In this document: positions 1,224 through 60,874 of the stretch, in pieces
Layout: the number at the start of each line of letters is the position of its first letter
Position numbering within the stretch: the stretch's first letter is position 1
Virus record (IMG/VR): IMGVR_UViG_3300025168_000086
Coordinates: 1-61,750 of that record
Direction: 5' to 3' (one strand)
Source: a virus
DNA length: 61,750 bases
Made by a program: the position numbers and the translations under genes
Notes under the pieces: generated by a model
The model's input: only the letters and a program-made list of their open reading frames with translations
Told to the model about the DNA's origin: nothing
Databases searched by the model: none

Positions 1224-3389
1224 ATGAACAAGAACACCAACAACGTCAACATCACTGCCAAAGACAGCTTCGCACGGGTACTTGCCACCGAGAACATTCA
1301 TGTTTCTCATGATGGCAATGCCTCGACTGCATCGTTCAACACTCAGAGCCGTGTCCTCACCCTGCCTCGTTGGGAGTCCATGGGCAGTCAACTCTACGAC
1401 ATGCTCGTGGCACATGAGGTTGGACACGCACTGTACACACCGGCTGACATCGATTCTGTTCGCGCCCTTGCAGCCAAGCACGGTGTCGATCTCATGGTTG
1501 CCAAGGACTACATCAATGTGGTCGAGGATGCCCGCATCGAGCGTCTCATGAAGCAGAAGTTCCCCGGTCTCCGCCGTGACTTCATCTTTGCCTACAACGA
1601 TCTGCTCAAGCGTGAATTCTTCGGTGAAAATGCCCTTGACGCTGACAAGGTTGCTGCCATGCAATTGATCGACCGTATCAACCTGCACTACAAGGCTGGT
1701 ACCGTTGGGGCTTGCATTGACTTCGACACCGTTGAGCGACCGTTCGTTGATCAGATCGATGCCGCTGAGACTTGGGATGCCATCATCGACTGTGCTGATG
1801 CCCTTCTTGAGTATGCTGGTGCCATTCCCAAGCAGGAGTCTGATCAGACTCCACAGGATGGTGATCAGGGACTTCCTGACACCGGCGATGACTCTGATGA
1901 CTCTGATGAGTCCAGCATCGGTGACGATGACGGTGACATCGATGGTGATGATGGTGATGCTGGTGAGCCACTCACCAGTGAGAAGACTGATGATCAGCCA
2001 AAGTCTACCACTTCTGGCAGTGACATCTCAGCCACCGATCAGCATGACGATACCACTCCCATCGAGCGGTCTGAGACGCAGCAGAAGTTCGATGAGAACG
2101 TGGACCGACTCCGCACCAACTCCGGTGGCGCAGACAAATTCGTCGGTGTGCCTAAGCTTGCTCTCGACAAAGTGATGATCGACTGGACTGAACTCTACGG
2201 TACGGGCGAGAAGAGCGTCAACGGACACTACTCCGATGCCAAGACCTCACTCGAAACTCTCGACGAGGTTGACCGCTTCCTTGACGAGTCCCGCAAGACC
2301 TGTCGCTCCATGGCTCAGGAGTTCCTCCGCAAGCAGAACGCCGTTGCATTCCGCCGTGCTACCATCGCCAAGACCGGCGTGCTGGACATGCAGAAGATGG
2401 TGAACTACAAGTGGTCCGAGGACATCTTCCGCAAGACTACCATCATGCCAGACGGCAAGAACCATGGACTCGTCATCGCAGTGGACTGGTCTCAGAGCAT
2501 GGATCCCGTGATGAAGGACACCATCCGACAGGCTATCCAGATGGCGATGTTCTGCCGCATGATCAACATTCCTTTCGAGATGTATTCCTTCTCGACCATC
2601 GTTCAGGGTCGCAGTTACCGCTCCACCGATTTGCCAGAATTCATCGATCCTGACACAGGCGAAAAGATCGTGGGGACTGACCTGATCATGCGGAACTACC
2701 TCTCGTCGCGTATGCCCAAGCAGATGTTCTTCGATGCCTGCAAGCGAGTCGCGATCATGTCTGAGACGTTTGGTTGGAGCGGGCAGGGTATCACTCGACA
2801 TGATGATCGTCTTGGTGCCACTCCTCTTGATGATGCAATCTACGCTCTGACCAACTGGCTTCCCAAGTATCGGACCGACAACAACATCGAGATCATGAAC
2901 ACCCTGTTCATCTCCGATGGTGCCTCTACCAGTATGCCGCTCAGAGAATCAGAAGTTATCCGTGACGGTCACCGATACTTCCGACCAGATCGGCGTTCCC
3001 GATATGGACAACCATCCACGATCCAGGCTCTGGATGTACTTCGCGCCCGAACCGGAACTCGCCTTGTTCAGTTCTTCCTGACCGAGAAGAAGTCGATCAA
3101 GAACAGTTGGTGGCTTGGACTGGGTGATGACAGGAAGCAGGAAGAGCGACAGCGAGCCGAGTACAAGAAGAACAAGTGGACCATTGCTCAGGAAAAGCAG
3201 GGCTTCGATGAGCGGTTCATCATGTTCGGCAAGAACGCAGTCCAGAATGCCGATGCATTCGAGGAGATGGGGCGCTCTGACGAGGACGGTGTGACCATCA
3301 CCAAGATCCGCAACAGCTTCGTCAAGGCTATGAAGCAGAGTGGTACCTCCCGTGCCATGCTCAACCGCTTCATCGACATCATCGCATGA
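1224..3389 (+). CDS. cobT: CobT-like VWA-domain protein with N-terminal HExxH motif
   Basis: 721 residues. N-terminal part: HEVGHALYTP at residues 64-73, then NVVEDARIE at 98-106, an HExxH plus downstream glutamate arrangement as in gluzincin metalloproteases. The centre (about 205-275) is Asp/Ser/Gly-rich low complexity, as in cobaltochelatase CobT. The C-terminal half is a von Willebrand A domain: the MIDAS motif DWSQS begins at D421, and FISDGAS supplies the later acidic residue. CobT works with the CobS AAA+ ring, and a CobS-like gene lies just upstream, so an ATPase/VWA remodelling pair is likely. CobN, the chelating subunit, is absent from the window, so literal cobalt insertion is doubtful. 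Many C-ending codons and higher GC distinguish it from most neighbours. It is probably translated from a leaderless or near-leaderless message. Confidence 0.82.
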   Translation: MNKNTNNVNITAKDSFARVLATENIHVSHDGNASTASFNTQSRVLTLPRWESMGSQLYDMLVAHEVGHALYTPADIDSVRALAAKHGVDLMVAKDYINVVEDARIERLMKQKFPGLRRDFIFAYNDLLKREFFGENALDADKVAAMQLIDRINLHYKAGTVGACIDFDTVERPFVDQIDAAETWDAIIDCADALLEYAGAIPKQESDQTPQDGDQGLPDTGDDSDDSDESSIGDDDGDIDGDDGDAGEPLTSEKTDDQPKSTTSGSDISATDQHDDTTPIERSETQQKFDENVDRLRTNSGGADKFVGVPKLALDKVMIDWTELYGTGEKSVNGHYSDAKTSLETLDEVDRFLDESRKTCRSMAQEFLRKQNAVAFRRATIAKTGVLDMQKMVNYKWSEDIFRKTTIMPDGKNHGLVIAVDWSQSMDPVMKDTIRQAIQMAMFCRMINIPFEMYSFSTIVQGRSYRSTDLPEFIDPDTGEKIVGTDLIMRNYLSSRMPKQMFFDACKRVAIMSETFGWSGQGITRHDDRLGATPLDDAIYALTNWLPKYRTDNNIEIMNTLFISDGASTSMPLRESEVIRDGHRYFRPDRRSRYGQPSTIQALDVLRARTGTRLVQFFLTEKKSIKNSWWLGLGDDRKQEERQRAEYKKNKWTIAQEKQGFDERFIMFGKNAVQNADAFEEMGRSDEDGVTITKIRNSFVKAMKQSGTSRAMLNRFIDIIA

Positions 3390-4908: not shown

Positions 4909-7900
4909 TCAACCACCACCTAGTGCTGGTGGTATAATTATTGCGGGTTTGGTAGCTGATGTTGGATCTGGGATATCACCAGATGAGAACACCTGCTGAA
5001 CCTTGGCGAGTGTGGGTTTAGCCAAAGTCTCACCATCTCCCCCACCTTGGTTATCAGTAACCTGCCCGGTGTCAGTTCTGTTCTGAAGTCCAAGTCTAGA
5101 TTGCTCCTTAGCACTCAATTTAGCTTTGACATCAGCGGCTAGGTTGACTCCGGGGTTACCCTCGAAGACTTCGACGAGTCCCAATGAACTCTTACCAGCT
5201 TCGGGTGTCTTTACACCAAGAATGTCGTAAGCCTCAATACCGTGACCAACTCTGTTGCTGTCACCGGAAGCGGAACCACCACTCATCTCACCACCTGATG
5301 TAAGCCCAAACACCGCGTGTGGATCATGATATCCGGTAATCCCGAATTGATCATCGATGATTTCCTTTGGCTTCATATCTGCATTATCTATGACGGCTGT
5401 CGCATCATTTGAAAGATCGAATACTCCAAATGGTGAGTTTGGAATTCCACCAATCTTACCCGGATATGCAGGATAGAATATATGAGTCGTTTCCATGTTC
5501 TTGTGTGAAGTACCACCTGCCATTGGTGTGAAGAACGCAAGGTTTGAGTCACGGAAGGCTTCCGCACTCTGAGTATAAACCGTTGGCATAAAGTAACCGG
5601 GAGCCTTATTGAATCCGGGTGCTCCTGCGATATGTCGGACATCACATGGTGATCCAATTGGTCGGAAAGCAAGAGTAACTCCATCCCGATATGGGTCTGT
5701 TATGTCAAGATCGGAATTATTCCAGTCGAGCGCGGACATACATCTCTTAAAGGGAATTTCACCGAATGTTGTATCAGTTGTTTTACCAGCAAAGAATTCT
5801 TTCATCGAAGCGTTATCCCTGACAATGTGGTTGTTTTCACATCTACTACTGGCGTGATCAAACATATCACCCCAAGTTATCGATCTTGCACCCGAGTAAA
5901 GATTCAAACTCTCACCAGTTCCCCATTCACCAAATTCGCTGTTGAATTTATGGTAATCTGGAATCGATCCATTTACCTTACCCTGAAGGGTGTTCGTTAG
6001 ACGCATGTTCCTGAATAAGTGTGGTCCGGAGAATCCACCAGACTGTCCCATTCCAGTTGCTCCCAAGGTTCCTCCACCGAGAGCGGTGTTACCGGGATAT
6101 CTTGGCGTGAATGCGGAACCACCAACATACCACTTTGGAATGCTAATGTTGTAAGCGGCATTTCTCATTATATTCCGATCGATAACAAAGTGGTCAATTG
6201 AACCATTTATGTTCATGTTTTGTCCGCCTGGAGCGTCATACTGATTATCAACGTGAGCAAAGTCTTGTTGTGGGTAGCAGTATCCATATGCATGTTTTTG
6301 ACTCGCCTCAAAGTTGATTCCTGCCGAATTGTCTTTGTAACGAGTTGCCTTACCAAAAGAGTGGTGACCAAGCTGATTGTTAGACACTGATACTCTGAGA
6401 CCAGCCAAAATTCTGTTTCTCATGTGGAAGCCATTTGAGTACTGAACAAGGTCACTGTGGACTTCCTTAGAGTGATATGATCCACTGTAAGCGTGCCAGC
6501 AACATGCAATAACGGCACCCGGTGCCATTGGATACATATCACCCTTCTGTAGAATGTGCTCGTTGTGCTTCGCTACTTTAACACCCTTACAGATGTAAGA
6601 GGTGCCCCAAGTGGTCGTGTTGAAGACATAAACTCCACCAGGCCATTGCGTCGCGAGTGAGGTGGCTTGTTGTGGTAAAGCCTTCCAGTGTGAAGTATTA
6701 GTGAAATCTTGGTACGTGTTACCCTTTGAGAAGTAGCAACCATCCATGTATAGTTTCATGAGAGATATTCTACTAGTACCGTTGAACACTGGTGCGAATC
6801 CACCCATCATAAAGTCTGGCTTAAACCACAGATCTTTAAATCTAACATTCAAATCATCAACTCTGGCTCCACCATTGAAGTTCATGAGGGTGCCAGCGCC
6901 ATCGACATAGCTTTCTGGGTTACCACCAGAGTGACCTCTCATTTGTACGAATTGAGTTCCATCCGTTGCGGTGGGGGTGTTCGATAAACCAACGATGTCA
7001 ATTACCTTTTCGACGGCAAGAGCAGTTGCTACTCCACCAGTCGCTGAGTTTGACCATATAAGACGATTTTCCGCTGCTTGAGATCCATTGACAGTACCAA
7101 AGTTTGCTCGTGGCCACTGGTGAATACCACCAGATACACCAGAACCAGATGGTGACTTGAGGAAGACTTTCATGTCTGCGTTTTCTTTACACTTGGCGGC
7201 AGTTGTCCACTCACCTTCAAATACATTCTGAAGTGTTCTGTATGGTTGTGTTAAACCACCCGTTTCGGTACCTACAAATCCGGGATCGACGTACCAAACT
7301 TTTCTAGCTGTATTGGTGTTGAAGTAGAAACCTTCAGCAGCGATGCCAGGGCCCTGTGGGTTGTGCCCTCTGTAACCTGCACCACCAGAGAGAAGTTCTT
7401 CCTGAATGGTATTTGGGGTAATATGTCGAGAAATCGTTATATCACCAGCACCAGTTTTACCGGTGTGGTCGAATGTAGTACCGCGTTGCACTACTCCGTC
7501 ACCGTCAGTGTAGAAGGCTTCGGTTCTACCCTCTAGTCGAACAATCTTACCGGCGCTCTTTGGATATACAACTGCACGAACTTCATTGTAACCATTTGTC
7601 ATAGTTTTCGCTGGAATTTTCGCGTAGTATTCATTATGCTTAGTTCCCCACGTGGGGTGTGGAACGGGGCAACCTTTACTATTTACATCAAGAGTTAAGC
7701 CACCATTAAGTTGGAATTGAACTTTGTCAATGTCATTGATGTGGTGAGCCTGTAGTGTGACATAGAAATCATCTTCATATGTAAGATATGGTTGTGTTGA
7801 CCAAGCAACAATTGGTGATGCGGTGTAACCCCTAGCACCAGAAGTTCCAACGAAACCTAAATCAACGCTGTCTCCCGTACCATCACTTAAGAATCCAGTA

Positions 7901-8238
7901 CCAGCGATTAGCTGGTTCTGGTTCAACGCTCTTTGTCCAGGTCCACCAGCAGCAGCACCGTAACCAGCAGATGCACTACTTGCTGCGTCGGCAGCATCTG
8001 CGGCATTTGAACTTGTACTACGACTTTCTAGAGCTTCAATTAATGAGAATTGCAAATTCTGCAATTCGACATCAGTTATCTTAGCTCCAGTATTCACGTC
8101 TTCCCACATCTGCGACTCACCAAGCCATCCGAATACTCTACCATCGTCGAGGTGAATTCTTCTGGAAAATCTATTGTGATCTATTGTTGACTTTGCAGGC
8201 AAATGCTCATTAATTTTCTTGTCGTTGTTGGCGCCCAT
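4909..8238 (-). CDS. Large beta-helix adhesin / tail-fibre-like protein (1109 aa)
   Basis: N-terminus (about 1-60) contains LDDGRVFGWLGESQMWEDV, perhaps a virion-attachment part. An Ala/Ser/Gly linker follows near residues 80-110, then an Ig-like stretch (SPIVAWSTQPYLTYEDDFYV...IDKVQFQLNGG). From KVWYVDPGFVGTETGGLTQPYRTLQNV onward it looks like a right-handed parallel beta-helix with many Asn/Gly turns. The same order (Ig-like stretch, then YV..G..GDG...P..TI) occurs in the plus-strand gene at 32491, so the two are probably distant paralogues. Such proteins act as tail spikes or host-binding fibres; no enzyme motif is certain. RBS AAGGAA precedes ATG 8238, and TATAAATA lies about 50 bases upstream. 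Role is inferred. Confidence 0.65.
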   Translation of the reverse strand: MGANNDKKINEHLPAKSTIDHNRFSRRIHLDDGRVFGWLGESQMWEDVNTGAKITDVELQNLQFSLIEALESRSTSSNAADAADAASSASAGYGAAAGGPGQRALNQNQLIAGTGFLSDGTGDSVDLGFVGTSGARGYTASPIVAWSTQPYLTYEDDFYVTLQAHHINDIDKVQFQLNGGLTLDVNSKGCPVPHPTWGTKHNEYYAKIPAKTMTNGYNEVRAVVYPKSAGKIVRLEGRTEAFYTDGDGVVQRGTTFDHTGKTGAGDITISRHITPNTIQEELLSGGAGYRGHNPQGPGIAAEGFYFNTNTARKVWYVDPGFVGTETGGLTQPYRTLQNVFEGEWTTAAKCKENADMKVFLKSPSGSGVSGGIHQWPRANFGTVNGSQAAENRLIWSNSATGGVATALAVEKVIDIVGLSNTPTATDGTQFVQMRGHSGGNPESYVDGAGTLMNFNGGARVDDLNVRFKDLWFKPDFMMGGFAPVFNGTSRISLMKLYMDGCYFSKGNTYQDFTNTSHWKALPQQATSLATQWPGGVYVFNTTTWGTSYICKGVKVAKHNEHILQKGDMYPMAPGAVIACCWHAYSGSYHSKEVHSDLVQYSNGFHMRNRILAGLRVSVSNNQLGHHSFGKATRYKDNSAGINFEASQKHAYGYCYPQQDFAHVDNQYDAPGGQNMNINGSIDHFVIDRNIMRNAAYNISIPKWYVGGSAFTPRYPGNTALGGGTLGATGMGQSGGFSGPHLFRNMRLTNTLQGKVNGSIPDYHKFNSEFGEWGTGESLNLYSGARSITWGDMFDHASSRCENNHIVRDNASMKEFFAGKTTDTTFGEIPFKRCMSALDWNNSDLDITDPYRDGVTLAFRPIGSPCDVRHIAGAPGFNKAPGYFMPTVYTQSAEAFRDSNLAFFTPMAGGTSHKNMETTHIFYPAYPGKIGGIPNSPFGVFDLSNDATAVIDNADMKPKEIIDDQFGITGYHDPHAVFGLTSGGEMSGGSASGDSNRVGHGIEAYDILGVKTPEAGKSSLGLVEVFEGNPGVNLAADVKAKLSAKEQSRLGLQNRTDTGQVTDNQGGGDGETLAKPTLAKVQQVFSSGDIPDPTSATKPAIIIPPALGGG

Positions 8239-8285: not shown

Positions 8286-8297
8286 TATTTATAAATA
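8286..8297. promoter_or_regulatory. Palindromic divergent T4-type late promoter
   Basis: TATTTATAAATA contains TATAAATA on the plus strand (8290-8297, facing the 8338 gene) and on the minus strand (8286-8293, facing the 8238 gene). Both genes have good ribosome-binding sites and leaders of roughly 35-40 bases, so one 12-bp element can serve two divergent late transcripts. Confidence 0.7.
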
Positions 8298-8337: not shown

Positions 8338-9333
8338 ATGTCTGATAAAACAACCGAGAACAAACAACAGAAATCACGATTTGGTCAAGTTATATCAGAA
8401 AATGTAGCTTTATCTTCCGCAGAACAGAGGCGAATAGACGATGAGATGAAAAAGATGAACGACAATATCGCACGGGAGGTTGAAAGAAGATCAAGAAGTC
8501 GCTTTACTGGAATAGATCCTACCAGTGATCGATATCGAGGAAGAAGAAACGAAGCAGGTGTTCGGTCCAATCCAGACTTCGATCCGACTGCACCCGGCGC
8601 ACAGGATGCAATTCGCAGAGCACAAGTACGTGATAACTTTGCTCAAGGTCGTGCTCCACAATATGGAGATCCCACACACCCATCAAGGACAGGTACTCGT
8701 GGAAGCACCTATACTGATATCGCGCAAGACAGACGAGGGGTGATTAATCCCGATCGGGAAACAGCTATTCAGGATATTATGAAAAGTGCACCAGAAGGTA
8801 GTGCAGAGCACACAAGGCTCATGGGTCTGGACGATGCAGGCTTACAAAGTGCAATTGATCAGAGAATTTCCGCAAACAACAAGGCTCAAATGGATCGTGT
8901 CAAAGCAGACCGAGAATATAGAGAAATGGAGCAGTTTGGATATCAACCAAGCAATGCCGCTGGTGGTGGACCACCAGATCCAGCTTCAACTCAGAGGTAT
9001 AGAGAAAGATCGCAGGAATACCAAGATAGACAGAGGACCGCATTTGCCGACTATAAATCTGGTGATGCTGGAGACGGAATGAGTCAACGAGACATTTTCA
9101 ATCAGGACATCGCTGCACTGAATAACCAGAGGCGGAGTGCCGGTTCTAGAGAAGACAGAATTGCCATCAATGCGAAAATTCAAGCAAGAAGACAACAAGA
9201 TCGCATAGCGAGAAGAAACATGAGAAGAGATGCTGCTGGTGGTAAATCCAGAGATGAATTTATGCAAAATGAAAATCATTTTCCCACATCTCCATCAGAA
9301 TTTGTTAAAATGTTACGTGAACAATCCAACTAA
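8338..9333 (+). CDS. Highly charged Arg/Gln-rich hypothetical protein (331 aa)
   Basis: Very hydrophilic, rich in R, Q, D and N, with segments such as DEMKKMNDNIAREVERRSRSRF and QARRQQDRIARRNMRRD that suggest long helices or disorder. There are no cysteines, signal peptide or membrane segments. Family not recognised. Start ATG 8338 has AAAGGA eight bases upstream and a late promoter at 8290-8297, so it is probably a late virion or assembly (for example scaffold or internal) protein; that role is only a guess from composition and regulation. The zinc-ribbon gene follows 14 bases downstream. Confidence 0.7.
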   Translation: MSDKTTENKQQKSRFGQVISENVALSSAEQRRIDDEMKKMNDNIAREVERRSRSRFTGIDPTSDRYRGRRNEAGVRSNPDFDPTAPGAQDAIRRAQVRDNFAQGRAPQYGDPTHPSRTGTRGSTYTDIAQDRRGVINPDRETAIQDIMKSAPEGSAEHTRLMGLDDAGLQSAIDQRISANNKAQMDRVKADREYREMEQFGYQPSNAAGGGPPDPASTQRYRERSQEYQDRQRTAFADYKSGDAGDGMSQRDIFNQDIAALNNQRRSAGSREDRIAINAKIQARRQQDRIARRNMRRDAAGGKSRDEFMQNENHFPTSPSEFVKMLREQSN

Positions 9334-9347
9334 AAGGAAATTATATT

Positions 9348-9641
9348 ATGCCGACTTATGATTACAAATGCAGTGCATGTGAAAACTTATGGGAAGAATT
9401 CAGTTTAATTAACGACAGAGATCAACCCACAAATAATCCTTGTCCAGAATGTGGTAAAGAAGAAGTTACTCGTGAAGTGACTGGTTATGGTATATGCGTC
9501 GATACCAATATCACACCAAACAAGAAAACTGGTGGTCAGTGGAATGAACTGATGCAGAAAATGAATAAAACTTTATCGAAGGATGCCCAAGCAGGGCTTG
9601 ATCGTGCAAGCAGTAGATCTGGTCAGCGTTGGTCAGGATAA
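9348..9641 (+). CDS. FmdB-type zinc-ribbon protein (97 aa)
   Basis: MPTYDYKCSAC at the N-terminus is the hallmark of the FmdB/CxxC_CxxC_SSSS family. The two cysteine pairs C8/C11 and C32/C35 (PCPECGKEE) form a single zinc ribbon. The remaining 60 residues are polar with a KMNKTLSKDAQAGLDRASSRSG tail. FmdB-like ribbons are common small phage proteins thought to bind nucleic acid or protein partners; no enzymatic role is known. RBS AAAAGGAAA precedes ATG 9348. It lies between the charged 331-aa protein and the giant Cys-rich gene. Confidence 0.8.
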   Translation: MPTYDYKCSACENLWEEFSLINDRDQPTNNPCPECGKEEVTREVTGYGICVDTNITPNKKTGGQWNELMQKMNKTLSKDAQAGLDRASSRSGQRWSG

Positions 9642-9699: not shown

Positions 9700-12600
9700 A
9701 TGTCAACACAAAGAAATTGTTGCTGCGATAGCGTAAGACCAGATGTCCCAAAACAAGCTGCCTGTTTGGGTGGTGATAAATTTTTCGTTCGTCAAGGTGA
9801 TGTACCACACTCCGAGAATAATCCCAGTAGATATTATCCACCGAACTATGGAACACCCTCCAATCTTTCAGATCCTAACGATATGAAAACAAACAACGGA
9901 AACTCGTGTATGTTATGCACGAATACTTTAGTTCAGAAAAATTCTAACTTTCCATTTTCACTCTGGGGAACAATGGTCGTCATACCAGGCGGTGCGTTGG
10001 GGTTACAAGATCCAACCGATGACAGCGTTGGTGATGCTCCTCGCATCAAAGGTGATCACCTAGCAGCACTTGATCTATATTATGGGGCACTTCCACCTAG
10101 TGAAAATGAAAGACTCAACCTGCGAGAAGGTCTACTAGATCCAATTCACTCAACATATAATTTCAATAGAGTTATCTCCCTAAACCCATCGGACGCAGAA
10201 AACCCAACAATTGACTTCCCAATTCAAGAAGATCAATTGCCGTTTAAAAATTCATACCTGAAAAAACTTGAACAGTATAAACAGCAAAAAAGATATCACG
10301 TATTTAATGTCAAAAAGAAAAAGAGAAAACTAAAACTCAATAAATCATTTGGCATGAGCCTTAAGCTTCGAGTACCATACTTCACAGCAGACAAAGAAGA
10401 TCAACTTCACGTAGGTGTAAAATCCGACTATGCAGTATTAGATTATCTTGATCACAACAACAGTCTTATTTTTCTTTTCAAATCAAAAGAAAAAAGAGAC
10501 GAATTTGCATTGACAACAGATTATATTGATATAAGATGTATTGACTCGGATAGATCACAATATCGATCGAGAGAGTTATCTCCTGTCATGTTCAAAGATA
10601 CTGTACATGGTATGATGGTGAGGTTTAATGGTAAACAAGACGGTAGCCCTCAAAATGAAAGAGAAATAACCAAAACAACCACAAATGAACGGCTACAAAT
10701 TGTGTTGTGGGGATATGAAGGAAATTCAGATCCCGATATCCCCGTTAATATTATCGGTGCCGAAATATATGTAAATCGTTCAGCGTTATTGAAAGAGACT
10801 CCTCCAATAACAAACGAATTAATTGAAATTATCAATCCTGATTGGACAGAGCAAATTAATAAAATTGCCGATAATTTTGAAGATGATGATATACCCGATG
10901 AACGAGTTTCTGTTGGAGATGGTGGAACACCCGGCACCGAAGCTGCCTGGCTATGTTGCTGTAATGGCGACGAAGCATGTGGTAAATTTGTTCCAAGCAG
11001 CCCGGGATGTTTACAGGGAGGTAATCAGACGCAGGAAGAAAGAGAAGAATGCTGTAAAAATGTAACACCCTCTGTTGGTCAAGGTGGTAACCCAGTCGGT
11101 GGTGGTAATGCACCATGCGTACCAATATTGGCACTCGATACTTGCCCATATCGAATATGTTGCGATTTCAATTACGACAGTCAGACTATTATATGTGATT
11201 GTATTAATACAGATACCGATACTTGCGATGGAAGTTTAAGTCTTAATAGGGCATGTGGTAAATGTGGTTCTGAAATAACTGGTGCGTGTTGTTTACCAGA
11301 CGGAAGTTGTGAGGAAAAAACAGCGGACGAATGTGCCGCTGTTGGTGGAACCTTATTCGAGGGAACATGTGCAGAACTCGAAGCAAGTGGTGATTGTGTG
11401 CAAATGGGGGCTTGTTGTTTCTGTGATGGTACATGTACTGACAACACAACACAACAAGTATGTGAAGACAATAACGGAACTTTCAGTAGTGGAGAGAGTT
11501 GCGCTGGTCTCAACTCAGATCCTACAACTGCATGTATAGCCATAGGTGCCTGCTGTGTAAAACGGAATGATGGTGTATCAAATTCATGTTCACAAGATAC
11601 GACTGAACAAGCCTGTGATGCGCTGGCCGCGAATGATCCGGGGGTGGAGGATACATCATGGAATAAGTGTGGTCTCTGCCCTGGCTCCAGTGGTGGGGAC
11701 GGTGACATAGTAGATTGCGAAGGAGACGGTAATGTCGGTGAACCCGATCCCGGTGGTGGTGTCGGTACAAACACGGAGAACTCCGGAGTTGGCTCATTCA
11801 ACCAGACGGAATCTGCTGAATCGACTAACACGACTAACACGACTAACTCGGGTGATGGAACCGATGGAACCATTGACATTGGTGATACGAACGACTCCAG
11901 TGATCCTGTTCTAGATGTTGATCCCGCTGATGACGGGACTCCGTGGCCAAATGATGAAAGTTTCGATTCGACGCACAACCAGTTTGAAACTGGCGTACCC
12001 GACAATAGTGGCGTACCCGACAATAGTGGCGATGACGGTGGAGTCGATGTCGATGTTTCCGGTGGTTCCAATGCTTATTATATGAACATAAAGACTACTT
12101 ACCAAGAGGGTCAACCAATCTACACAATGTTCCACCACATCGTAGATTATTGGTACTTTGATTGGGGAAGATCTCTCCATGGTGAAGGTCCTGATCTGTC
12201 CACACCCGAAGGTTTCTATGGAATTGGCAAGGGTAAATCACAGTACGGACAGGACCATATATTCACTCCTCAGATTGATCATGATCATTTTGTGCCTGGT
12301 TGGAGTGAAAATGTACCATTTAAATATCCGGGGGCGCCGAATTTTGGGCCAGGTCAAATGGTACCGAAATTTGATGGTCCAAGTGCATTATATGGCATTG
12401 ACGATCAGCTTGATGGTCAAACAGATCAGAATGGAATATTTAATCCAGTAGATTCTGTAGACATAAGCCGTGAGGATTACCTCAGTTGTAGATTCGGTAT
12501 ATCAAATGTAGATTTAATTTGTCATCCAAACAAAGATCGCGGAATGGATGCTAGAAGTGTATGGTCAAACTCTGGTAATAATCCGATCAATGAATGGGGA

Positions 12601-15600
12601 AATGCTAATCTTGGAGAAGCTTCGATACCCCTACCCGGTGGTCAGCAACCAACCACAACGATACCCGACTTGTTGCGCTCGGCATCGTCAGCCAACAACA
12701 GCGGATGTTCGCCATTCTCGCGTTGTCCACACACCTTACACACAAATTTGTCTGGGTATTATGGTCACCCTGCTGAGGGGGTCGCGGAAAATGGGACGTT
12801 TGATGTTCCCGCTAATCAGGGAGGAAGTAATGCTTATACCATGTGGAATCCGGGCCCGGCGACCGCCAACCAGCGAAAATGGGCTTTTGAAACTAGATGG
12901 TTGTGGCAAGGCAATGGAATACATTCTATATGTCCAAAACAGAGTAACTGTCTAGCCCAAGGCGCACCGTATAACAAAACTCCATATCAATCTAGCACGA
13001 ACGCGAGTACCTATGGCACACGAGGAAAAAGTGGGCTGAGTGATTGGCAAGTAACTACCATGGCAGCAGATCAAGACAGTAGATGGCTTCTTGACATTAT
13101 GTCATACGCTGATGCTAAACCGGTATTCTGGAGTCCATTCCACAATAAAAAAGCAAATCTGTATGATTGCCTCGTAGGTGTCATGCATAAAATGCGTGTA
13201 TTTGTACGTGGAGATTTCTGGACAGAATCACTAACTGGTCCATTCCAAACTTGCCCAGATGATCCATTTGGTGTTTGTTTTGAGGGTGAGGGTGCGAGTT
13301 TATCCAAATTAAAACCACACACATTCTACCCACCCCTTGTAAATTCAAAAATGCAAGCATCTGCTGATGGGTGTCAAACATGTTTCTCCAATAACCAAGA
13401 TCCAACTTGCCCATATAAAGACTACACTAAGTATTGTACGACACCGAAATACTGGATTTATAAATGTGCTGGTGTACCTATATTTGACTTTGAATTATGG
13501 GGGTTGATGTTAGAAGGAAAACTAAACATAGGTGATCTAAGTATACTGAGAAAGCCACCCCACCTAAACTTTAGGTATAGTGAGAACTTGGACGAACTGG
13601 ACCGCTTGCAAGCTTTGCGTTCAATAGGTGCCGACATACAAGATATTGGTGAAAAACTTAATGATGCAGGAATCTTAGACATACGTGACTGGAGAGAAGA
13701 ACAGCGTCTAATGTATAGAACGTGGGATCAGTTCTTAGACAAGGGTCGTCCAACGTTAGATCAAGAAAATGCTGGACCATATGCTGGCTTCAATGGGGAT
13801 GGATCTAGAATACCCGGAGTAGTGTGGGGAGATGCTTGTTGTCATGTTACTGATGATGAAGGCACACGATGTGATCCTGAAATAGATAGTCGATTTGCGT
13901 GTACTGAAGACAATATGCAATGGAAGGGTAGAACAAATCTATCAGACCCCCCCATTACGGAAGATTTAAAAAGAAGTGAATTACTACCAATCAGAAAAAG
14001 ATCAGTCGTCTTTATAAAGGATGAGGATGATATTGATTTCGATCCAACAGACAAAATAGGTCTACACTACGTCACTCGGGATCAGTACGAGGATGGTTTA
14101 CGTTCACTTGCTTCTAATGGGGAAGTGGATTCATCATATTATGATCCAACGGATCTACGTGGTGCCTTTTTGGGAAGTCCCCAGAATCCGGGTCCATTTG
14201 CTCGAAATCCTGTAAAGCTTGCGGGTAAATATGGAAGTGCTACTGGAATCCAACCACTAACACCAGATCTTATCAATAAATTTACTGCTTTAGAAAGTCC
14301 AAATCTTGTTCTTTCTGGTGAAATGGGATATTACAACCCAGATCGATACAACAAAAATCCACTTCGTCAAGGTCTTTCACCAAGACAGATTGTAGATACA
14401 AATGGATATTGTGGAGGCACCACGGTCACGAACCCTGAAGACGGTGTCGTCAACCCGACTCTAGGTGCGACTGTACCCGGAACTAGAAGAAGAGAAAATG
14501 ATCCCAGATGGTTACCTTATCCCAATGAAAACGATTATTATGATATTGCAGGTGCCCTTGATAGAAATGAGACAGAGTTAGAAGCAGGGATCATTACCGA
14601 AGAGGAATACCTAGCAGAAAAAGAACGACTAGAAGAGATACTTGAAGAGCAAAAAAATCTAATACGATATTATAAAATATATCTCGCCAACAATCCAATA
14701 TATCTACATGCTAGACCTGGAGGTTGGTCTCATGTTCCGATCACCCGACCAACCGAATTTGGTCTTATTGGATCAATACAACCATGGGATTTACTGAAGA
14801 AAAATAAAGGTGGTCCATACGCACTCCTTGATTTCTATGGATTTGAAAATGCTCCATGTTGGACCCACGGAGGCTCTGCCAACGGTCAGGGTGTTTTTCC
14901 CAGCGTAGCATATCCATATGGAACTCAGATGGTATATTTTCAAATTTACGAGAGTTCATTCACCGGTGTTCCAATAGTTTTACCCAGAGCAAACACCCGG
15001 AATCCTAGCGTTGGTGGTTGGAGTGATCCAAATATAGACTGCAAAGGTCCGAACTGTGGTGTAAATCCCAGTGAACCATGTCAACCACCAAACTTTGGGG
15101 CCCCATGTAATCAATGGATGGATCAACCTCAAATTGGTGTAGGTCCGGGTGGTTGCATAAATAGCTTAAGCGAAGATGGTTTGTGCAATTCATTAGTAGT
15201 CACAGGAAATAATCATGGTCTTCGAATTCGAGAGAAGGTATCATACCAAAATGGAATATGTCCACAAGAACCACTCGGATGTCAAAAGATCGTAAGAATT
15301 GATGAATACTGGAGATCATATTATCAAGAAACTCTAGTATTCCCGTTTGACTACAATTGTGTTCCCAGTGATCTACGATTATCACCGCGCCCCACAGAAG
15401 TACCAGAACCTGCTCCTGGCGGCGAATCGGACGGCGAACCGGAATTGGGAGAAGAATATAGTATACCTGATCCAGCATTTCCAGATCGAGGTGATTTTAA
15501 TGCGGAGAACATAGTTGGTTGTATAGAAAGAGTTGGAGGAATCTATGACGATTTAATTCCCAGACCAAACAACATGCAGCCGGAACACGATAAGGTTTCT

Positions 15601-18600
15601 TATGGTGCAAAACTTCGAGAAAATACTCATGTATGTGGTGATGATCCGTGTTCATGTGCCGGCTCGGGAGGTGGACATGCTCCTTGTAATCCTTCTCAAT
15701 CTTGCCCCGGGCCCGACTGCCCGTCGTTCTGTGGTTGCTGTTGTGACAGGGTTGAATGTGAAACTTGTCGGCAATGCGGTGAGGTAGATGCTAGTGGTAT
15801 TATAGAGTATGGTATAGAGACTGGTGGTCCAGATAAAGCTTTTCAGAGAGCACCACAGGGTTGGTATGTTCCTTATATTGTACAGTATAGTTGGAGTGAA
15901 ACTCCAGTATTCGATCCACCTGAATTAGAAAGCGAGGGTTGTGGTTCAGGTGGATACATATGCAAACGTATAGCAGACCCAAGTAATATAAAACCAGCCC
16001 CAGTGGTATTCGGGTGGGGCGCGAAGATAACATATTTCCCAATCCTTCAGATCGAACCAAGATTCAATAGTGGTGTGTGTAGATTATCTCGCCACTGTCC
16101 ATTTTCTATTGCAAAAAGTGGTTTCTCCTCTCTTAAATTAGATCAATCTTTGCCATATGGAAGTTCGTGGTATAGATGCGGGGATGCAATCGATGGTCCA
16201 CCAACACCCCACGATTGTTATGATGATGACAATCTCCCACCACGAGTTGATCTGGAAATTAAAACACTCAAGAGAGTAAAAACTGATGTTAATAGCAGAA
16301 CATTATTCCTAGATGAATTAGACTCTGGCAACTCAAACATAGGATATCCAAGTGCATACGTCAATCCCACCGAGGATGAAGATGCAGAAGATGTCGAATT
16401 TTACTGTTCGGTCAAACGATCAGATGAAGAATTCGAAGAAACTGGTATTGTGACCGACATACCGTTGCTACACTGGACATCTACCAGTCTCGGTGGATTT
16501 AGAGAAATTAGATTCACTAATATAATCAATCCAATGGAAAAGCATATTCGTAATGCTGCCAAAATTTTAGATCCGGAAGATGTTAGAGAGATTTATGGAT
16601 CACCCATAGGATGGAGAACATTTAAGGATTTAGAATTACACAAATCGGGATTTCCGCCAAATCAGATTGTTGGTGGTCCACCAGAATATCCCGGTTGGTC
16701 TCCACCAGAGTTACCATCCCCCGTTCCCGCCGATCAAAGAAGTGATCATGGATCACCGAATGCATCTGGTGCTCAGGACGCTTCATCACCATATAGATTC
16801 TTTGAATTAAATCACGACGAAGGTAGAAAGGTGGGTGCAATCATTCCATTCGGTGGATGGTTTGGTGGTGGTAGGTTCCTTGAGCCAGACACCTACCCTT
16901 CCAGTGAGATTCAGTTAGATCCTGATACGTCTCCACCATTCAGACCAAAAAATCTAAATGAAAAGGTACGTGGTGATTCGTATACTAGTGATGTTGCATA
17001 TATTCACTGGTATGAAGCCTTTGATAATTCCGATTTCGGAACCGATCCATGTCTACAATGTGATGCAGACGGTGAACCTGAAAATTGTTTGGTACAGCCA
17101 GGAGAAATTTGTCCAACTCCAGTTAATCCAGCCCGAGGTGTTATGGCTGGTCTACCATATTATCGCTATGATAATCAAGTGAATCCTGACGGAGGAGGAG
17201 GCGCGCCCTACGACAGAAAAAATAGAGACTTGTATGTCAACTATGGACCACCGGGATCCCTACCGGGCTATGCTAGTAACGGACGGGACGATTATATAGG
17301 AGTAAATAATCGACTAGAGGCAGGAGTTGCAGACGAAATAAATCGCGAAGATCTTGCCGATCGCGAATTTAGAAATGAGACTGTTTTAGGAACGGTGATG
17401 TTTATTTTCGATGATTTTGAAGACATGTATACCGCAGCGGTAACAAATAAAATGAGTAAAATGAGTTTACGTATTGATCCCGATTCATGCGAGACTAGTG
17501 ATTGCTCGGATTGGCCTCTTCGTGGTAGATACGAATTAACCAATCCAGCATTCATATTTGATCCAGCAGTATCTCCACCCTGCGAAGGAAGAAGCAATAT
17601 ACCACTCGTGACTTATAGTGGAAGAGGTTTGCAGGGTGATAGATACAATGATGTTGGATATTACGTCTGGGGCAATATCTTCTGTGATTCGACATCAGAT
17701 GCGTGTATTGATGATAATCAGGAAGATATTAATATCCCCGGTGAAAAATATTTTCCGAATGCCCTAGCATATGATTTGACTATGCTTCCACCCGATGCAT
17801 ACACGGATCAAGAAGATTATACCACAAATGGACCCGGCAGTAATCCTATAAGATCGGTTTCTGCACCTCATTACGATGAAAATGGTGACATGTTATATGA
17901 TTCATGTGTAGATTCACCTCACATTGAAGACGGTCAAGATGGTTGTTTTGACCCATGGTGTTCTCGGGTTGATCCAGCCGGCAACGATCTGAATTGCTCC
18001 AATGACCCTTCTGACTCTACTATATGTGAAACCGCCCCAGACGAATTTAAGGACTCATGTGCATGTGTTGGATTTAGAAATTGTCTCGAAGCATTCTATG
18101 CGAAATTGCACACGACACTTTCCAAGGATAATACAGTTAAAATTCTATTAGAGCCGCCTGCATGTGCATTATATGGTGGTGCAGATCCGGGCGGACTAAG
18201 ACCAATATGTAACTGTACTGATAATGAAGAAGAGTTAGGGCGTTGCACACAAGCTGATGATCCAAATTTACCTGCCCCCGGATCTCTAATAGATGACTAC
18301 TCAGAGACTGGATCAGGCTCACGACCAACAAGTGCCGAGTGTTGTGCAGCATTCTCATCAAATCCACTTTTTGCTTACTGCAATGATGCTAGGTTTGGTG
18401 GATGGGATCAAAATTGCTCTGACGGATTTGCGGCCTATCTAAATTCCCCTGATGTTTCTCCATACTGTACTAATCTTAGCTGTAGCACTGGCGTTGGATC
18501 TTGCTGTACCGCGCATAATACACCATTCTGTGACACACCATCATGTTGTGGAGCGGTATGTGACATTGATCCCAATTGTTGTGAGTTTGGATGGGATGAG

Positions 18601-19083
18601 ACATGTGCTGAGTGGGCGAGAAACCCAATCCTCAACGAGCCTGGTCCAAATGGTGAAGATCCACCCTGTGCATGTGAACAAGCTACTGGTGCATGTTGCC
18701 CTCCACCAATAGATGAAAATGATGGAGGAGATCCGACTCAACCACCCGTAATACCACCGTCATGCCAGGAAGGTCGGACAATTGAAGAATGTGCAGAAAA
18801 AACGTACCAATGGCAACAAGCTGGAAACGAAGGATTCTTCACATGGCAAGAAAACGCTGGATGTTGTGTTTGTAATGGAGAGTGTGACGAGCCAAGAGGA
18901 GCCTGTTGCTATGGAGACGATGGGCAATGTCAACCAGATCTTACTTTCACTGAGTGCGTTGAAAGTGGGGGTAATTATGCAGGAAACTTTACGAATTGTT
19001 TAGCGTGTGTTGACGGACCCGGTGGTGGAGTTGGACCTGGTGATGGACCCGGTGGTGCGCCTGGATTTGGTAGTGGATTTTAA
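9700..19083 (+). CDS. Giant cysteine-rich protein with planctomycete-type repeats (3127 aa)
   Basis: The longest gene of the window. N-terminal 400 residues are mixed alpha/beta with a basic stretch (KKKKRKLKLNK). A CC-rich block at about 420-660 holds at least three copies of a GACC...C...C....G..C repeat (first GACC at residue 528, base 11281). An acidic Thr/Asn/Ser linker with tandem repeats (11822-11848, 11992-12027) follows. The long middle is aromatic, Pro/Gly/Asn-rich and Cys-studded. Near the C-terminus (about 18330-18640) lies a module with CCTAHNTPFCDTPSCC and CCEFGWDETCAEWA, then further GACC repeats and a Gly/Pro tail. These repeats are, to my knowledge, typical of secreted Planctomycetes proteins. 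Location between late genes suggests a very large virion or surface adhesin. No RBS is obvious before 9700 and no signal peptide was found, so export by phage assembly rather than secretion is likely. Confidence 0.7.
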   Translation: MSTQRNCCCDSVRPDVPKQAACLGGDKFFVRQGDVPHSENNPSRYYPPNYGTPSNLSDPNDMKTNNGNSCMLCTNTLVQKNSNFPFSLWGTMVVIPGGALGLQDPTDDSVGDAPRIKGDHLAALDLYYGALPPSENERLNLREGLLDPIHSTYNFNRVISLNPSDAENPTIDFPIQEDQLPFKNSYLKKLEQYKQQKRYHVFNVKKKKRKLKLNKSFGMSLKLRVPYFTADKEDQLHVGVKSDYAVLDYLDHNNSLIFLFKSKEKRDEFALTTDYIDIRCIDSDRSQYRSRELSPVMFKDTVHGMMVRFNGKQDGSPQNEREITKTTTNERLQIVLWGYEGNSDPDIPVNIIGAEIYVNRSALLKETPPITNELIEIINPDWTEQINKIADNFEDDDIPDERVSVGDGGTPGTEAAWLCCCNGDEACGKFVPSSPGCLQGGNQTQEEREECCKNVTPSVGQGGNPVGGGNAPCVPILALDTCPYRICCDFNYDSQTIICDCINTDTDTCDGSLSLNRACGKCGSEITGACCLPDGSCEEKTADECAAVGGTLFEGTCAELEASGDCVQMGACCFCDGTCTDNTTQQVCEDNNGTFSSGESCAGLNSDPTTACIAIGACCVKRNDGVSNSCSQDTTEQACDALAANDPGVEDTSWNKCGLCPGSSGGDGDIVDCEGDGNVGEPDPGGGVGTNTENSGVGSFNQTESAESTNTTNTTNSGDGTDGTIDIGDTNDSSDPVLDVDPADDGTPWPNDESFDSTHNQFETGVPDNSGVPDNSGDDGGVDVDVSGGSNAYYMNIKTTYQEGQPIYTMFHHIVDYWYFDWGRSLHGEGPDLSTPEGFYGIGKGKSQYGQDHIFTPQIDHDHFVPGWSENVPFKYPGAPNFGPGQMVPKFDGPSALYGIDDQLDGQTDQNGIFNPVDSVDISREDYLSCRFGISNVDLICHPNKDRGMDARSVWSNSGNNPINEWGNANLGEASIPLPGGQQPTTTIPDLLRSASSANNSGCSPFSRCPHTLHTNLSGYYGHPAEGVAENGTFDVPANQGGSNAYTMWNPGPATANQRKWAFETRWLWQGNGIHSICPKQSNCLAQGAPYNKTPYQSSTNASTYGTRGKSGLSDWQVTTMAADQDSRWLLDIMSYADAKPVFWSPFHNKKANLYDCLVGVMHKMRVFVRGDFWTESLTGPFQTCPDDPFGVCFEGEGASLSKLKPHTFYPPLVNSKMQASADGCQTCFSNNQDPTCPYKDYTKYCTTPKYWIYKCAGVPIFDFELWGLMLEGKLNIGDLSILRKPPHLNFRYSENLDELDRLQALRSIGADIQDIGEKLNDAGILDIRDWREEQRLMYRTWDQFLDKGRPTLDQENAGPYAGFNGDGSRIPGVVWGDACCHVTDDEGTRCDPEIDSRFACTEDNMQWKGRTNLSDPPITEDLKRSELLPIRKRSVVFIKDEDDIDFDPTDKIGLHYVTRDQYEDGLRSLASNGEVDSSYYDPTDLRGAFLGSPQNPGPFARNPVKLAGKYGSATGIQPLTPDLINKFTALESPNLVLSGEMGYYNPDRYNKNPLRQGLSPRQIVDTNGYCGGTTVTNPEDGVVNPTLGATVPGTRRRENDPRWLPYPNENDYYDIAGALDRNETELEAGIITEEEYLAEKERLEEILEEQKNLIRYYKIYLANNPIYLHARPGGWSHVPITRPTEFGLIGSIQPWDLLKKNKGGPYALLDFYGFENAPCWTHGGSANGQGVFPSVAYPYGTQMVYFQIYESSFTGVPIVLPRANTRNPSVGGWSDPNIDCKGPNCGVNPSEPCQPPNFGAPCNQWMDQPQIGVGPGGCINSLSEDGLCNSLVVTGNNHGLRIREKVSYQNGICPQEPLGCQKIVRIDEYWRSYYQETLVFPFDYNCVPSDLRLSPRPTEVPEPAPGGESDGEPELGEEYSIPDPAFPDRGDFNAENIVGCIERVGGIYDDLIPRPNNMQPEHDKVSYGAKLRENTHVCGDDPCSCAGSGGGHAPCNPSQSCPGPDCPSFCGCCCDRVECETCRQCGEVDASGIIEYGIETGGPDKAFQRAPQGWYVPYIVQYSWSETPVFDPPELESEGCGSGGYICKRIADPSNIKPAPVVFGWGAKITYFPILQIEPRFNSGVCRLSRHCPFSIAKSGFSSLKLDQSLPYGSSWYRCGDAIDGPPTPHDCYDDDNLPPRVDLEIKTLKRVKTDVNSRTLFLDELDSGNSNIGYPSAYVNPTEDEDAEDVEFYCSVKRSDEEFEETGIVTDIPLLHWTSTSLGGFREIRFTNIINPMEKHIRNAAKILDPEDVREIYGSPIGWRTFKDLELHKSGFPPNQIVGGPPEYPGWSPPELPSPVPADQRSDHGSPNASGAQDASSPYRFFELNHDEGRKVGAIIPFGGWFGGGRFLEPDTYPSSEIQLDPDTSPPFRPKNLNEKVRGDSYTSDVAYIHWYEAFDNSDFGTDPCLQCDADGEPENCLVQPGEICPTPVNPARGVMAGLPYYRYDNQVNPDGGGGAPYDRKNRDLYVNYGPPGSLPGYASNGRDDYIGVNNRLEAGVADEINREDLADREFRNETVLGTVMFIFDDFEDMYTAAVTNKMSKMSLRIDPDSCETSDCSDWPLRGRYELTNPAFIFDPAVSPPCEGRSNIPLVTYSGRGLQGDRYNDVGYYVWGNIFCDSTSDACIDDNQEDINIPGEKYFPNALAYDLTMLPPDAYTDQEDYTTNGPGSNPIRSVSAPHYDENGDMLYDSCVDSPHIEDGQDGCFDPWCSRVDPAGNDLNCSNDPSDSTICETAPDEFKDSCACVGFRNCLEAFYAKLHTTLSKDNTVKILLEPPACALYGGADPGGLRPICNCTDNEEELGRCTQADDPNLPAPGSLIDDYSETGSGSRPTSAECCAAFSSNPLFAYCNDARFGGWDQNCSDGFAAYLNSPDVSPYCTNLSCSTGVGSCCTAHNTPFCDTPSCCGAVCDIDPNCCEFGWDETCAEWARNPILNEPGPNGEDPPCACEQATGACCPPPIDENDGGDPTQPPVIPPSCQEGRTIEECAEKTYQWQQAGNEGFFTWQENAGCCVCNGECDEPRGACCYGDDGQCQPDLTFTECVESGGNYAGNFTNCLACVDGPGGGVGPGDGPGGAPGFGSGF
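11822..12027 (+). repeat. Short in-frame tandem repeats in the acidic linker of the giant protein
   Basis: Two clusters in the linker: a 9-base unit CGACTAACA repeated about three times at 11822-11848 (TNTTNTTN), and an 18-base unit repeated twice exactly at 11992-12009 and 12010-12027 (GVPDNS twice). Both keep the frame, so they look like slippage-driven linker length variation. Confidence 0.85.
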
Positions 19084-19144: not shown

Positions 19145-19900
19145 ATGTCTGAGACGAGACCAAAAACATACACTCTAAACAAAGAGTTTGATCTATACAG
19201 TGCATACACTAATTATGAAAGTAATTATAAAACAAACTGGCCAGAAAAAGATACTCCAGAAAAATTAGAATATCTGAAAAGACTACAAGAAGAGGGATTC
19301 AAGCCAATCCACGAAAATGCTGCTATGGAACAAACTCTCGAAGCTTTCAAAAAGAGATACGACGAACAAGTTAAAGATGGAACGTTAAACGATATCCCAA
19401 TATCGAAAGCTATATCAAAACCTATAGTTAACAAGCAAAATAGAGATAGCTCTGGTGCAGTTGTAGAAAAAAATCCAATAAAACAACAGATAAACATACA
19501 AAAACCAAAACAACAAGTCAAACAACCGGAAGTTATGACAAAGGAAGAACAGAAAACAAAGTTCTCTGTTAAAAACGTGGTTAATTATCTGAAAGCAGAG
19601 CAGTCCCTTGCCACACAAGGACCAGTTTCTCTTACTGTCTTCGAGGAAAGAAAAGCTATATGTGGAGAATGCCCCCACAGAAAGACTCACGAACAGATTC
19701 CAGATGAACTTGGATTCTGTACTAAGTGTGGCTGTGGTGCCAACCCACGGGCAAGACTGACAAACAAGATTAAAATGCCTCAGACTTCTTGTCCATTAGA
19801 CAAATGGGGCACATCAACGGGCATATATAAAGGTGTAGCAGGTAAACTGAAATATAAGCTAACTCCCAAGTCAAAGCGGGAAAAGTTGGATTATACATAA
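19145..19900 (+). CDS. Phage protein with C-terminal zinc-binding Cys cluster (251 aa)
   Basis: The first 160 residues are polar and Lys/Gln-rich (predicted helices and linker). The last third holds a metal-binding cluster: ICGECPHRK, then FCTKCGCGANPRARL, then MPQTSCPLDKW (about 170-221). This Cx2C...Cx2CGC...CPxxKW arrangement is a recurrent small domain in tailed-phage genomes; its function is not established. RBS TGGAG lies seven bases before ATG 19145, and GATAAATA at 19085-19092, one mismatch from the T4 late consensus, could be its promoter. Confidence 0.7.
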   Translation: MSETRPKTYTLNKEFDLYSAYTNYESNYKTNWPEKDTPEKLEYLKRLQEEGFKPIHENAAMEQTLEAFKKRYDEQVKDGTLNDIPISKAISKPIVNKQNRDSSGAVVEKNPIKQQINIQKPKQQVKQPEVMTKEEQKTKFSVKNVVNYLKAEQSLATQGPVSLTVFEERKAICGECPHRKTHEQIPDELGFCTKCGCGANPRARLTNKIKMPQTSCPLDKWGTSTGIYKGVAGKLKYKLTPKSKREKLDYT

Positions 19901-32442: not shown

Positions 32443-32490
32443 TTTAGATATAGATATATTAAACAATTAAAAGTAAAGGATATGCTAACC

Positions 32491-34462: not shown

Positions 34463-35221
34463 ATGATGTCAAAAAACAAACTAGTAGCATATGCAGTGAG
34501 CTTGCTAGTCGTCATGAACCAACTCTCAGGCTGTTCTACATTAGAAAAGTCTTCACAAAAACCCACAGAAAATCAAACAGAATCACCACCAGAATTTAAA
34601 CCATTCATCCCTCTTGATGATAATGCGTTTGGTTTTGTAGGATCTCTACGTCGTTCAACAGGTAAAGTTCTAGGTTCCGCTGTTCTGATAGAAACAAATG
34701 TTGCACTTACTGCGGCGCACTGTTTAATTGATACCGATATTTCATACGTAGAATTTGCTGGGAAAAACTACCCAATCGACTACACCATATGCTACGAAGA
34801 CGGAACACATATAAACCACGACATTGGGTTAGTATTTCTAACAGAAAATGTTATTGGAGTTAATCCAGTTAGCAGAATTGATGACGTTATTAGTAGCATA
34901 AAAAAATGGGATTATGTTACAACAATTGGCTACTCTAGGGGATTTAAAAAGGCATCGTCACTCAGCACATTTCGATACTACGGTGTTCTATACAACGAAG
35001 AAAATCAAATCAAGATGCTACCACATAATGGGAGTATCTGGTTTGGTGACTCTGGTGGTGGTTTATTTTGGTTTGGTCCCAAAGGATTTCAATTAATAGG
35101 AATCCTAATCAGCTTTTCACAGATTGACGGAACAATCATAGAAAATTCATCTACTCGTGTTGATTGTTATCAAAATTGGATAGATCACGAAATAGAGAAG
35201 AATAAAGAATTAAATTCTTAA
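34463..35221 (+). CDS. Lipoprotein trypsin-like serine protease (252 aa)
   Basis: Signal peptide with lipobox: LLVVMNQLSGC, acylation Cys24. A Ser/Pro/Glu linker leads to a chymotrypsin-fold domain with the whole triad: H86 in LTAAHCL, D120 in HDIGLVFL, S197 in GDSGGG. The N-terminus of mature trypsins is replaced by a linker, so zymogen cleavage is not expected. A phage-coded protease anchored at a membrane could cut surface proteins, exclude other phages or process virion proteins; none of this is shown by sequence. ATG at 34463 or 34466; TATACT directly precedes, and no ribosome-binding site is visible. Converges with the RuvC-like gene, stops overlapping by four bases. Confidence 0.8.
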   Translation: MMSKNKLVAYAVSLLVVMNQLSGCSTLEKSSQKPTENQTESPPEFKPFIPLDDNAFGFVGSLRRSTGKVLGSAVLIETNVALTAAHCLIDTDISYVEFAGKNYPIDYTICYEDGTHINHDIGLVFLTENVIGVNPVSRIDDVISSIKKWDYVTTIGYSRGFKKASSLSTFRYYGVLYNEENQIKMLPHNGSIWFGDSGGGLFWFGPKGFQLIGILISFSQIDGTIIENSSTRVDCYQNWIDHEIEKNKELNS

Positions 35222-56751: not shown

Positions 56752-56760
56752 ATTAAATCC

Positions 56761-58862: not shown

Positions 58863-58863
58863 T

Positions 58864-59520
58864 TTAAAAAGTCACTTTCTCTTTTTTATGTGGTTGCTGT
58901 ACTGTATATTCTTTATATGGTTCTATTACTTTATATTTATTATTAGTTTTGTAACAAGAATAATCAAAACTCAATTGATCCCTATAACTAAACTGAGCAA
59001 CCATAGACCACCACTGTTCATTTAGTTTTGCTATTTGTGGAGTATTTCTTCTTACCAATAGATGACATGCACCAAGACCATTATTTTCTGGATAACCATT
59101 AAATCTCATATGCGCAACTTCATCATCAACCACATCAGGATCCTCATATTTTAACACATCACGTATTTCTTTAGCCTCAGCGTAAGCACACGATCGGTAT
59201 GGATTTTTATGTAGAGCGATATCGTGATCCGTTAAAAACTCATCAATAAAAAACTGTGGGTGTCTGTTGATAAACATATTTGAGTCAACGTAAATTGTAT
59301 AATCATAGTTCGGAAAATATAAATGTGAGTTAATTTTTGGATGTCGTGAAGTCTTTCTAACTGTATCAGATGTCAACATTGGAGCCTTGAGTTGCCAACC
59401 CGACACACTTTTCGGCTCCTCTTCGTCTGTTATCATGAATAAATCAACTCCCGGAATTTCCGGTATCGATATATTTTCATCATAACCACCTATGTTCACA
59501 GTGTAAACAGCTATCTTCAT
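58864..59520 (-). CDS. DUF616-like glycosyltransferase (218 aa)
   Basis: ATG 59520 (MKIAVYTVNIGGYDENISIP), start overlapping the previous stop (ATGA). KIAVYTVNIGGYD, VDLFMITDEEE, DYTIYVDSNMFI and HRNPYRSCAYAEAKE-like (HKNPYRSCAYAEAKE) are typical of the DUF616/TOD1-type GT-A family, with YVDSN in the metal-binding position. Likely transfers a sugar to a glycan; acceptor unknown. Confidence 0.72.
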   Translation of the reverse strand: MKIAVYTVNIGGYDENISIPEIPGVDLFMITDEEEPKSVSGWQLKAPMLTSDTVRKTSRHPKINSHLYFPNYDYTIYVDSNMFINRHPQFFIDEFLTDHDIALHKNPYRSCAYAEAKEIRDVLKYEDPDVVDDEVAHMRFNGYPENNGLGACHLLVRRNTPQIAKLNEQWWSMVAQFSYRDQLSFDYSCYKTNNKYKVIEPYKEYTVQQPHKKEKVTF

Positions 59521-60850: not shown

Positions 60851-60874
60851 TTAATTATCCTTATTGTTACTTTT

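Follow-up and report, generated by a model that had tools for sequence, protein, structure and literature searches.

The protein of 3127 aa encoded at 9700-19083 (+) of the window, which is the whole stretch of DNA analyzed (61,750 b; IMG/VR virus record IMGVR_UViG_3300025168_000086, positions 1-61,750), contains small Cys-rich modules of two types, here called A and B, which are conserved in a syntenic orthologue, and its module B is of a planctomycete subtype. On balance, we lean towards the explanation that this giant protein is a late, virion-borne adhesive protein of the fibre or baseplate type in a T4-like phage infecting Phycisphaerae (Planctomycetota). The placement of the host in Planctomycetota as such seems quite probable from the gene content, and the link, drawn from modules A and B, a porin-like protein, and a dockerin-like WG pair, is strong but circumstantial.

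The window encodes a T4-like gene set of the Pantevenvirales type, consisting of UvsX, a DnaB-like helicase, a primase, and a family-B DNA polymerase, and also RNR, ThyX, and CobS- and CobT-type genes. The CobT-like gene (1224-3389, +) had a GC3 of 0.66, compared with approximately 0.26-0.33 for the polymerase, RNR, and other measured phage genes, and is likely to be a recent arrival or under different selection. Searches with the gene directly downstream of the giant gene and with RNR led to a related contig of 142,160 b (IMGVR_UViG_3300030102_006261; hereafter, the relative), which shares the gene order for most of the larger window genes, including those flanking the giant gene, and contains T4-like head, tail, and baseplate genes (gp6 and gp13 types called by profile, and gp17, gp18, gp20, gp21, and gp23 types by eye). 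A long cassette of glycosyltransferase and nucleotide-sugar epimerase genes was also observed at 55453-61738 (-) and at about 68-87 kb of the relative, which suggests glycosylated virions or an altered host surface.

The giant gene starts with ATG and its product has 145 Cys residues and an N-terminus (MSTQRNCCCDS...) without signal peptide-like features. An earlier sequence-only reading had reported this ORF and its Cys modules, and the coordinates proved exact and the clear modules far above shuffled sequences in score; the wording that the protein is built from such modules was too broad, as the modules are real but occupy just two blocks that together make up about 500 of the 3127 aa. The N-terminal Cys block (aa 411-680; 10930-11739, +) has 36 Cys residues, 34 of them kept in the orthologue, and is followed by a Ser/Thr/Asp/Gly-rich linker free of Cys (aa 681-790; 11740-12069, +), which is 33% identical between the orthologues, by a core (aa 791-2860; 12070-18279, +), for which a relative was found only in the orthologue and which is best kept at aa 1091-1480 (64% identical), and by the C-terminal module block (aa 2881-3105). 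Outside the module blocks, the giant had no matches in Pfam, PHROGs, and NCBIfam and no relatives in 50,697 phage records, and searches of phage records and viral contigs with the whole protein returned nothing or the close relative alone, giving one orthologue.

Module A, defined by the pattern GACC..DG.C...T...C, was scored with a profile built without the window copies. Three clear copies were found, namely A1 (aa 528-566, GACCLPDGSCEEKTADECAAVGG...; 11281-11397, +) with 23.2 bits, A2 (aa 570-612, GACCFCDGTCTDNTTQQVC...; 11407-11535, +) with 18.6 bits, and A5 (aa 3067-3103, GACCYGDDGQCQPDLTFTECVESGGNY...; 18898-19008, +) with 19.5 bits, whereas none of 4,000 shuffled versions of these Cys-rich segments exceeded 12.0 bits. 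All three have the family residues G1, A2, C3, C4, G8, C10, T14, and C18, as well as C30 in the A1 alignment. Two further copies are decayed: A3 (aa 616-660; 11545-11679, +) scored 2.9 bits but has kept its position, with GSCC in place of GACC in the orthologue, and A4 (aa 2997-3065; 18688-18894, +) is decayed or interrupted. Module B has the pattern CC..VC.IDP.CC...WD..C, and its single full copy (aa 2928-2975, containing CCTAHNTPFCDTPSCCGAVCDIDPNCCEFGWDETCAEWA; 18481-18624, +) scored 47.1 bits (E 1e-11 at Z=1e5) with a profile built from bacterial copies alone, and the highest score among 4,000 shuffles was 12.6 bits. Its VC..DP.CC...WD..C core, searched as a degenerate DNA pattern, matched the window once, at 18556-18606, with 0 matches expected. 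The module is preceded by a decayed copy, B' (aa 2881-2923, CCAAFSSNPLFAYCNDARFGGWDQNC; 18340-18468, +), which is 57% identical in the orthologue with 6/6 Cys kept and, like module B, is predicted by AlphaFold to form short helices. Neither A nor B has a Pfam, PHROG, or NCBIfam model. Profiles and degenerate DNA patterns were preferred in these searches because tblastn applies a low-complexity filter.

Both Phycisphaerae and a subset of uncultivated phages were found to carry module A. The bacterial sampling for A, and for the porin discussed below, covered Planctomycetota and Myxococcota, and, in even draws, A was present in 32/150 Phycisphaerae, many of which had tens of copies each. Among viral contigs, at least 119 stretches (L123-L241) carry it, almost always in the reading frame of a long Cys-rich ORF, with proteins reaching about 2,100 aa, so that these GACC proteins represent a large unnamed family. 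The notion that A is specific to planctomycetes was rejected on the basis of these viral stretches; being common also in many uncultivated T4-like phages, A is not exclusively bacterial. When four A-module giants were compared by tblastn with phage records, and one with plasmid records, no matches were obtained, although the low-complexity filter may hide some.

This distribution leaves room for an explanation that we consider rather unlikely, in which A is a building block owned by phages that was passed between T4-like phages and thence into Planctomycetes; a planctomycete host would then not be required for the window phage. It would agree with the abundance of viral copies, with the presence of A in only 6 of 149 evenly drawn Planctomycetota, and with the phage core of about 2,000 aa, which had no credible relatives in 397 Phycisphaerae genomes (best E 1e-3). 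However, it does not explain the planctomycete subtype of module B, the dockerin-WG pair, or the porin, and the tens of A copies in some Phycisphaerae genomes and the lack of A in all six T4-like cyanophage genomes examined also argue against it. The proposal in the sequence-only reading of domain capture from a planctomycete host is partly supported: the B subtype, the porin, and the dockerin-WG pair agree with such a host, but capture from the host is not the sole direction conceivable for A because A is widespread in uncultivated T4-like phages.

Returning to the giant as a virion protein of a planctomycete phage, we examined its genomic context. It is the last gene of a presumed transcription unit (8338-9333 / 9348-9641 / 9700-19083), in which it follows genes for a 331-aa protein (8338-9333, +; 57% identical in the relative) and an FmdB/zinc-ribbon protein directly upstream (9348-9641, +; kept in the relative at 78%). 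The gene directly downstream (19145-19900, +) encodes a 251-aa protein with a C-terminal, zinc-ribbon-like Cys motif, also kept in the relative (57%). An octamer resembling the T4-type late promoter (NATAAATA; 8290-8297, +), assigned by consensus match only, lies 48 nt before the 8338 gene and would direct late expression of the unit. A copy on the opposite strand at 8293 faces the gene at 4909-8238 (-), which encodes a 1109-aa protein without a family match, is absent from the relative, and lies in a higher-G+C stretch; its motif VWYVDPGFVGTETGGLTQPYRTLQNVFEG resembles one in the protein encoded at 32482-34353, and it is perhaps another beta-helix cargo gene.

GACC giants of other contigs adjoin, where their neighbours were read, gp13/gp14-type neck genes (L199) or a gp6-type baseplate wedge gene (L161), and a GACC stretch is located inside the baseplate-wedge protein of the relative itself (phrog_438; L336:14273-16096). 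Collagen-like repeats, which are typical of trimeric fibres, were found in 12/86 GACC ORFs. The AlphaFold model of the C-terminal block had a mean pLDDT of 67.6, with about 75-85 around B and A5, and indicated at moderate confidence a helical B and a mixture of beta and helix in A, and Foldseek returned nothing significant for this model. The giant matched no known tail protein family in PHROG, Pfam, NCBIfam, or credible PDB searches. An adhesive role is proposed by analogy, since no solved or predicted structure matches, and such a role in the virion appears rather probable. We consider it unlikely that the giant is instead absent from the virion and functions inside the infected cell or on it, for instance by imitating the host secretome as a surface coat or a superinfection-exclusion factor. 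Its gene is indeed outside the structural cluster (22-56 kb for the cluster and 125-135 kb for the giant, in the coordinates of the relative), in a region that also encodes the porin and the dockerin-bearing protein; however, the giant has no signal peptide near its N-terminus, the cytoplasm is reducing, and the related GACC giants are found among baseplate and neck genes, some of them with collagen-like repeats.

The type of module B bears most directly on the host phylum. The B pattern VC..DP.CC...WD..C was run over 84,980 species, with one genome each, and the 119 stretches listed were from Planctomycetota (60), Myxococcota/Deltaproteobacteria (49), unnamed taxa (9), and Burkholderiales (1). 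A CC four residues ahead of VC was present in 94/109 planctomycete modules and in 0/73 myxococcal ones, and this feature, which lies outside the search pattern, separates the two phyla. Both the window B and the orthologue B carry it, supporting the assignment of the module to the planctomycete type by its sequence. The two modules had been described in the sequence-only reading as characteristic of secreted proteins of planctomycetes, and this holds for the B subtype and for the occurrence of A in Phycisphaerae but not in an exclusive sense for either, B not being exclusive to Planctomycetes because Myxococcota carry another subtype. The contrary outcomes named in that reading did not occur, module A being absent from the six T4-like cyanophages. 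Only two viral contigs, L002 and L003, matched the B pattern, and the match in L002 was set aside, being away from the T4-like genes of the contig and in no long ORF.

Two further genes of the window also point to this phylum. The porin-like protein (342 aa; 35998-37026, -), which is 80% identical in the relative, has a signal-like start and ends in F and is predicted to be located in the outer membrane, where it may act in uptake, in exclusion, or in altering the host surface. It had no Pfam or NCBIfam matches, and its AlphaFold model had a pLDDT of 29.8. Among Phycisphaerae, 48/347 genomes had a relative of it (best E 1e-27, 33% identity over 299 aa), as did 3/237 among Myxococcota (best E 2.5e-6). 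The other gene (32482-34353, +) encodes a 623-aa protein that resembles a parallel beta-helix in its features and carries a dockerin-like WG pair (GDFNLDGKVNVGDLNYILANWG...DLVKVLSNWGA; 32659-32772, +), which comprises two WG calcium-loop-like repeats by sequence, with no match to Pfam Dockerin_1. The protein is fast-evolving save for this pair, which is kept in the relative as GDWNHDEIVDGEDLSVLLRQWG...LLGAWG though the proteins are 26% identical overall. When B loci of named phylum were checked by title, only planctomycete loci showed the dockerin-WG motif. It was also present in 4/34 GACC phage contigs, the relative, and 1/7 other RNR-related contigs; none of the six cyanophages had it. The GC3 of the dockerin-WG and porin genes was 0.42-0.43, compared with 0.28-0.30 for the giant and polymerase genes, as expected of later arrivals. 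Between them, at 34463-35221 (+), lies the gene for a trypsin-like protease whose N-terminus is of the lipoprotein type (LSGC), and no counterpart of it was found in the relative.

A host in Myxococcota, or in another phylum rich in secreted proteins with Cys repeats, would be in line with the myxococcal share of the listed B stretches and with the presence of A in 13/141 evenly drawn Myxococcota, mostly as a single weak copy. We regard it as improbable, since the B subtype of the window is absent from the myxococcal modules, the porin matches there are weak and rare, and A accompanies B in just 1/24 B-bearing myxococcal genomes, compared with 24/26 planctomycete ones. The sole B-bearing myxococcal genome with A among those tested (G036, the genome of L032, Myxococcales MAG_56) has 10 copies, which may be due to horizontal transfer or misbinning.

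The conservation of the giant itself was evaluated using its orthologue in the relative (L254:189-9845), a protein of 3218 aa that is 52% identical over 2913 aligned columns, belongs to the same length class, and has the same block order and neighbours, with modules A and B at the same positions; like the window, its contig is uncultivated and unannotated. It differs in a longer acidic insert at about aa 440-540 and in a 3-aa insertion in module B. Of the 145 Cys residues, 128 are retained, corresponding to 92% of the aligned Cys against the 52% overall identity. The module blocks have a GC3 of 0.29-0.30, the same as most of the rest of the giant gene. This uniformity and the presence of the modules in the orthologue show that they were not acquired recently, and recent capture was rejected. 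It is hardly credible that the repeats are low-complexity or convergent sequence or that bacterial DNA has been joined to the contig as a chimera: the modules are short and biased in composition, but they score far above shuffles and share their GC3 with most of the gene, and chimerism, chance, and other artefacts are excluded by the syntenic orthologue, with its shared gene order and retained Cys.

If the giant is a virion protein of a planctomycete phage, its lineage-specific core of about 2,000 aa would serve as a scaffold, and the two blocks of small disulfide modules, of a kind common to the modular secretome of planctomycetes, would form the exposed, host-facing part. Since the giant has no signal peptide, the disulfides would be formed after lysis and stiffen the modules outside the cell, where these may touch the host surface by binding, or mimicking, the partners of host secreted proteins. 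A more tentative idea, which we hold as possible, is that the T4-like phages with GACC giants represent a large unrecognised group of planctomycete-infecting myoviruses using host secretome modules (GACC, B, and dockerin-WG) for disulfide-hardened fibre or baseplate proteins, with these modules being a sequence tag for the host phylum. Planctomycetes are widespread in water and soil. If the link is true, the window phage, the relative, and possibly many GACC phages would be T4-like viruses of Planctomycetes, and the CC..VC and GACC modules could be used as a host marker. In any case, a phage protein family shares with bacterial proteins small Cys modules that are not modelled in Pfam, PHROG, or NCBIfam.

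Compared with known phages, the polymerase of the window is about 52% identical to those of Kyanoviridae cyanophages, whereas the six genomes of these tested have neither A nor dockerin-WG. Our text search for papers naming Planctomycetes phages found none, and the only such phage found described was Phage-ZRK32 of Poriferisphaera, a genus of Phycisphaerae. This phage of the deep-sea planctomycete Poriferisphaera heterotrophicis is of the same phylum of hosts, but it is chronic and extrachromosomal and, at 21.9 kb, not T4-like in size, and the portion of the report consulted mentions no Cys giant (PMC10945688). The GACC giants of other contigs (such as L161, 1741 aa; L199, 2097 aa; L185, 2056 aa; L148, 1367 aa) resemble the window protein in having repeated A modules and, in some, CCC/CCCC near the N-terminus, whereas they do not share its core, lack a B-like motif, and have up to about 20 [GT].CC motifs as opposed to a few. 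A 1302-aa protein in a fragment of another T4-like phage (L003:6805-10713) has two B modules, in the second of which CC precedes IC, but contains RCC1 repeats and no strict GACC module and is encoded between portal and prohead protease genes. The best single-domain matches of the C-terminus (E about 1e-13 to 1e-10) were Planctomycetota B proteins, including multi-module proteins with the same B subtype (L070; L071, 1400 aa; L081, 1014 aa), which differ in being bacterial, in having tandem B arrays in several cases, and in lacking the phage core. Host-like modules in a phage surface protein are of a known kind, and the form found here is new.
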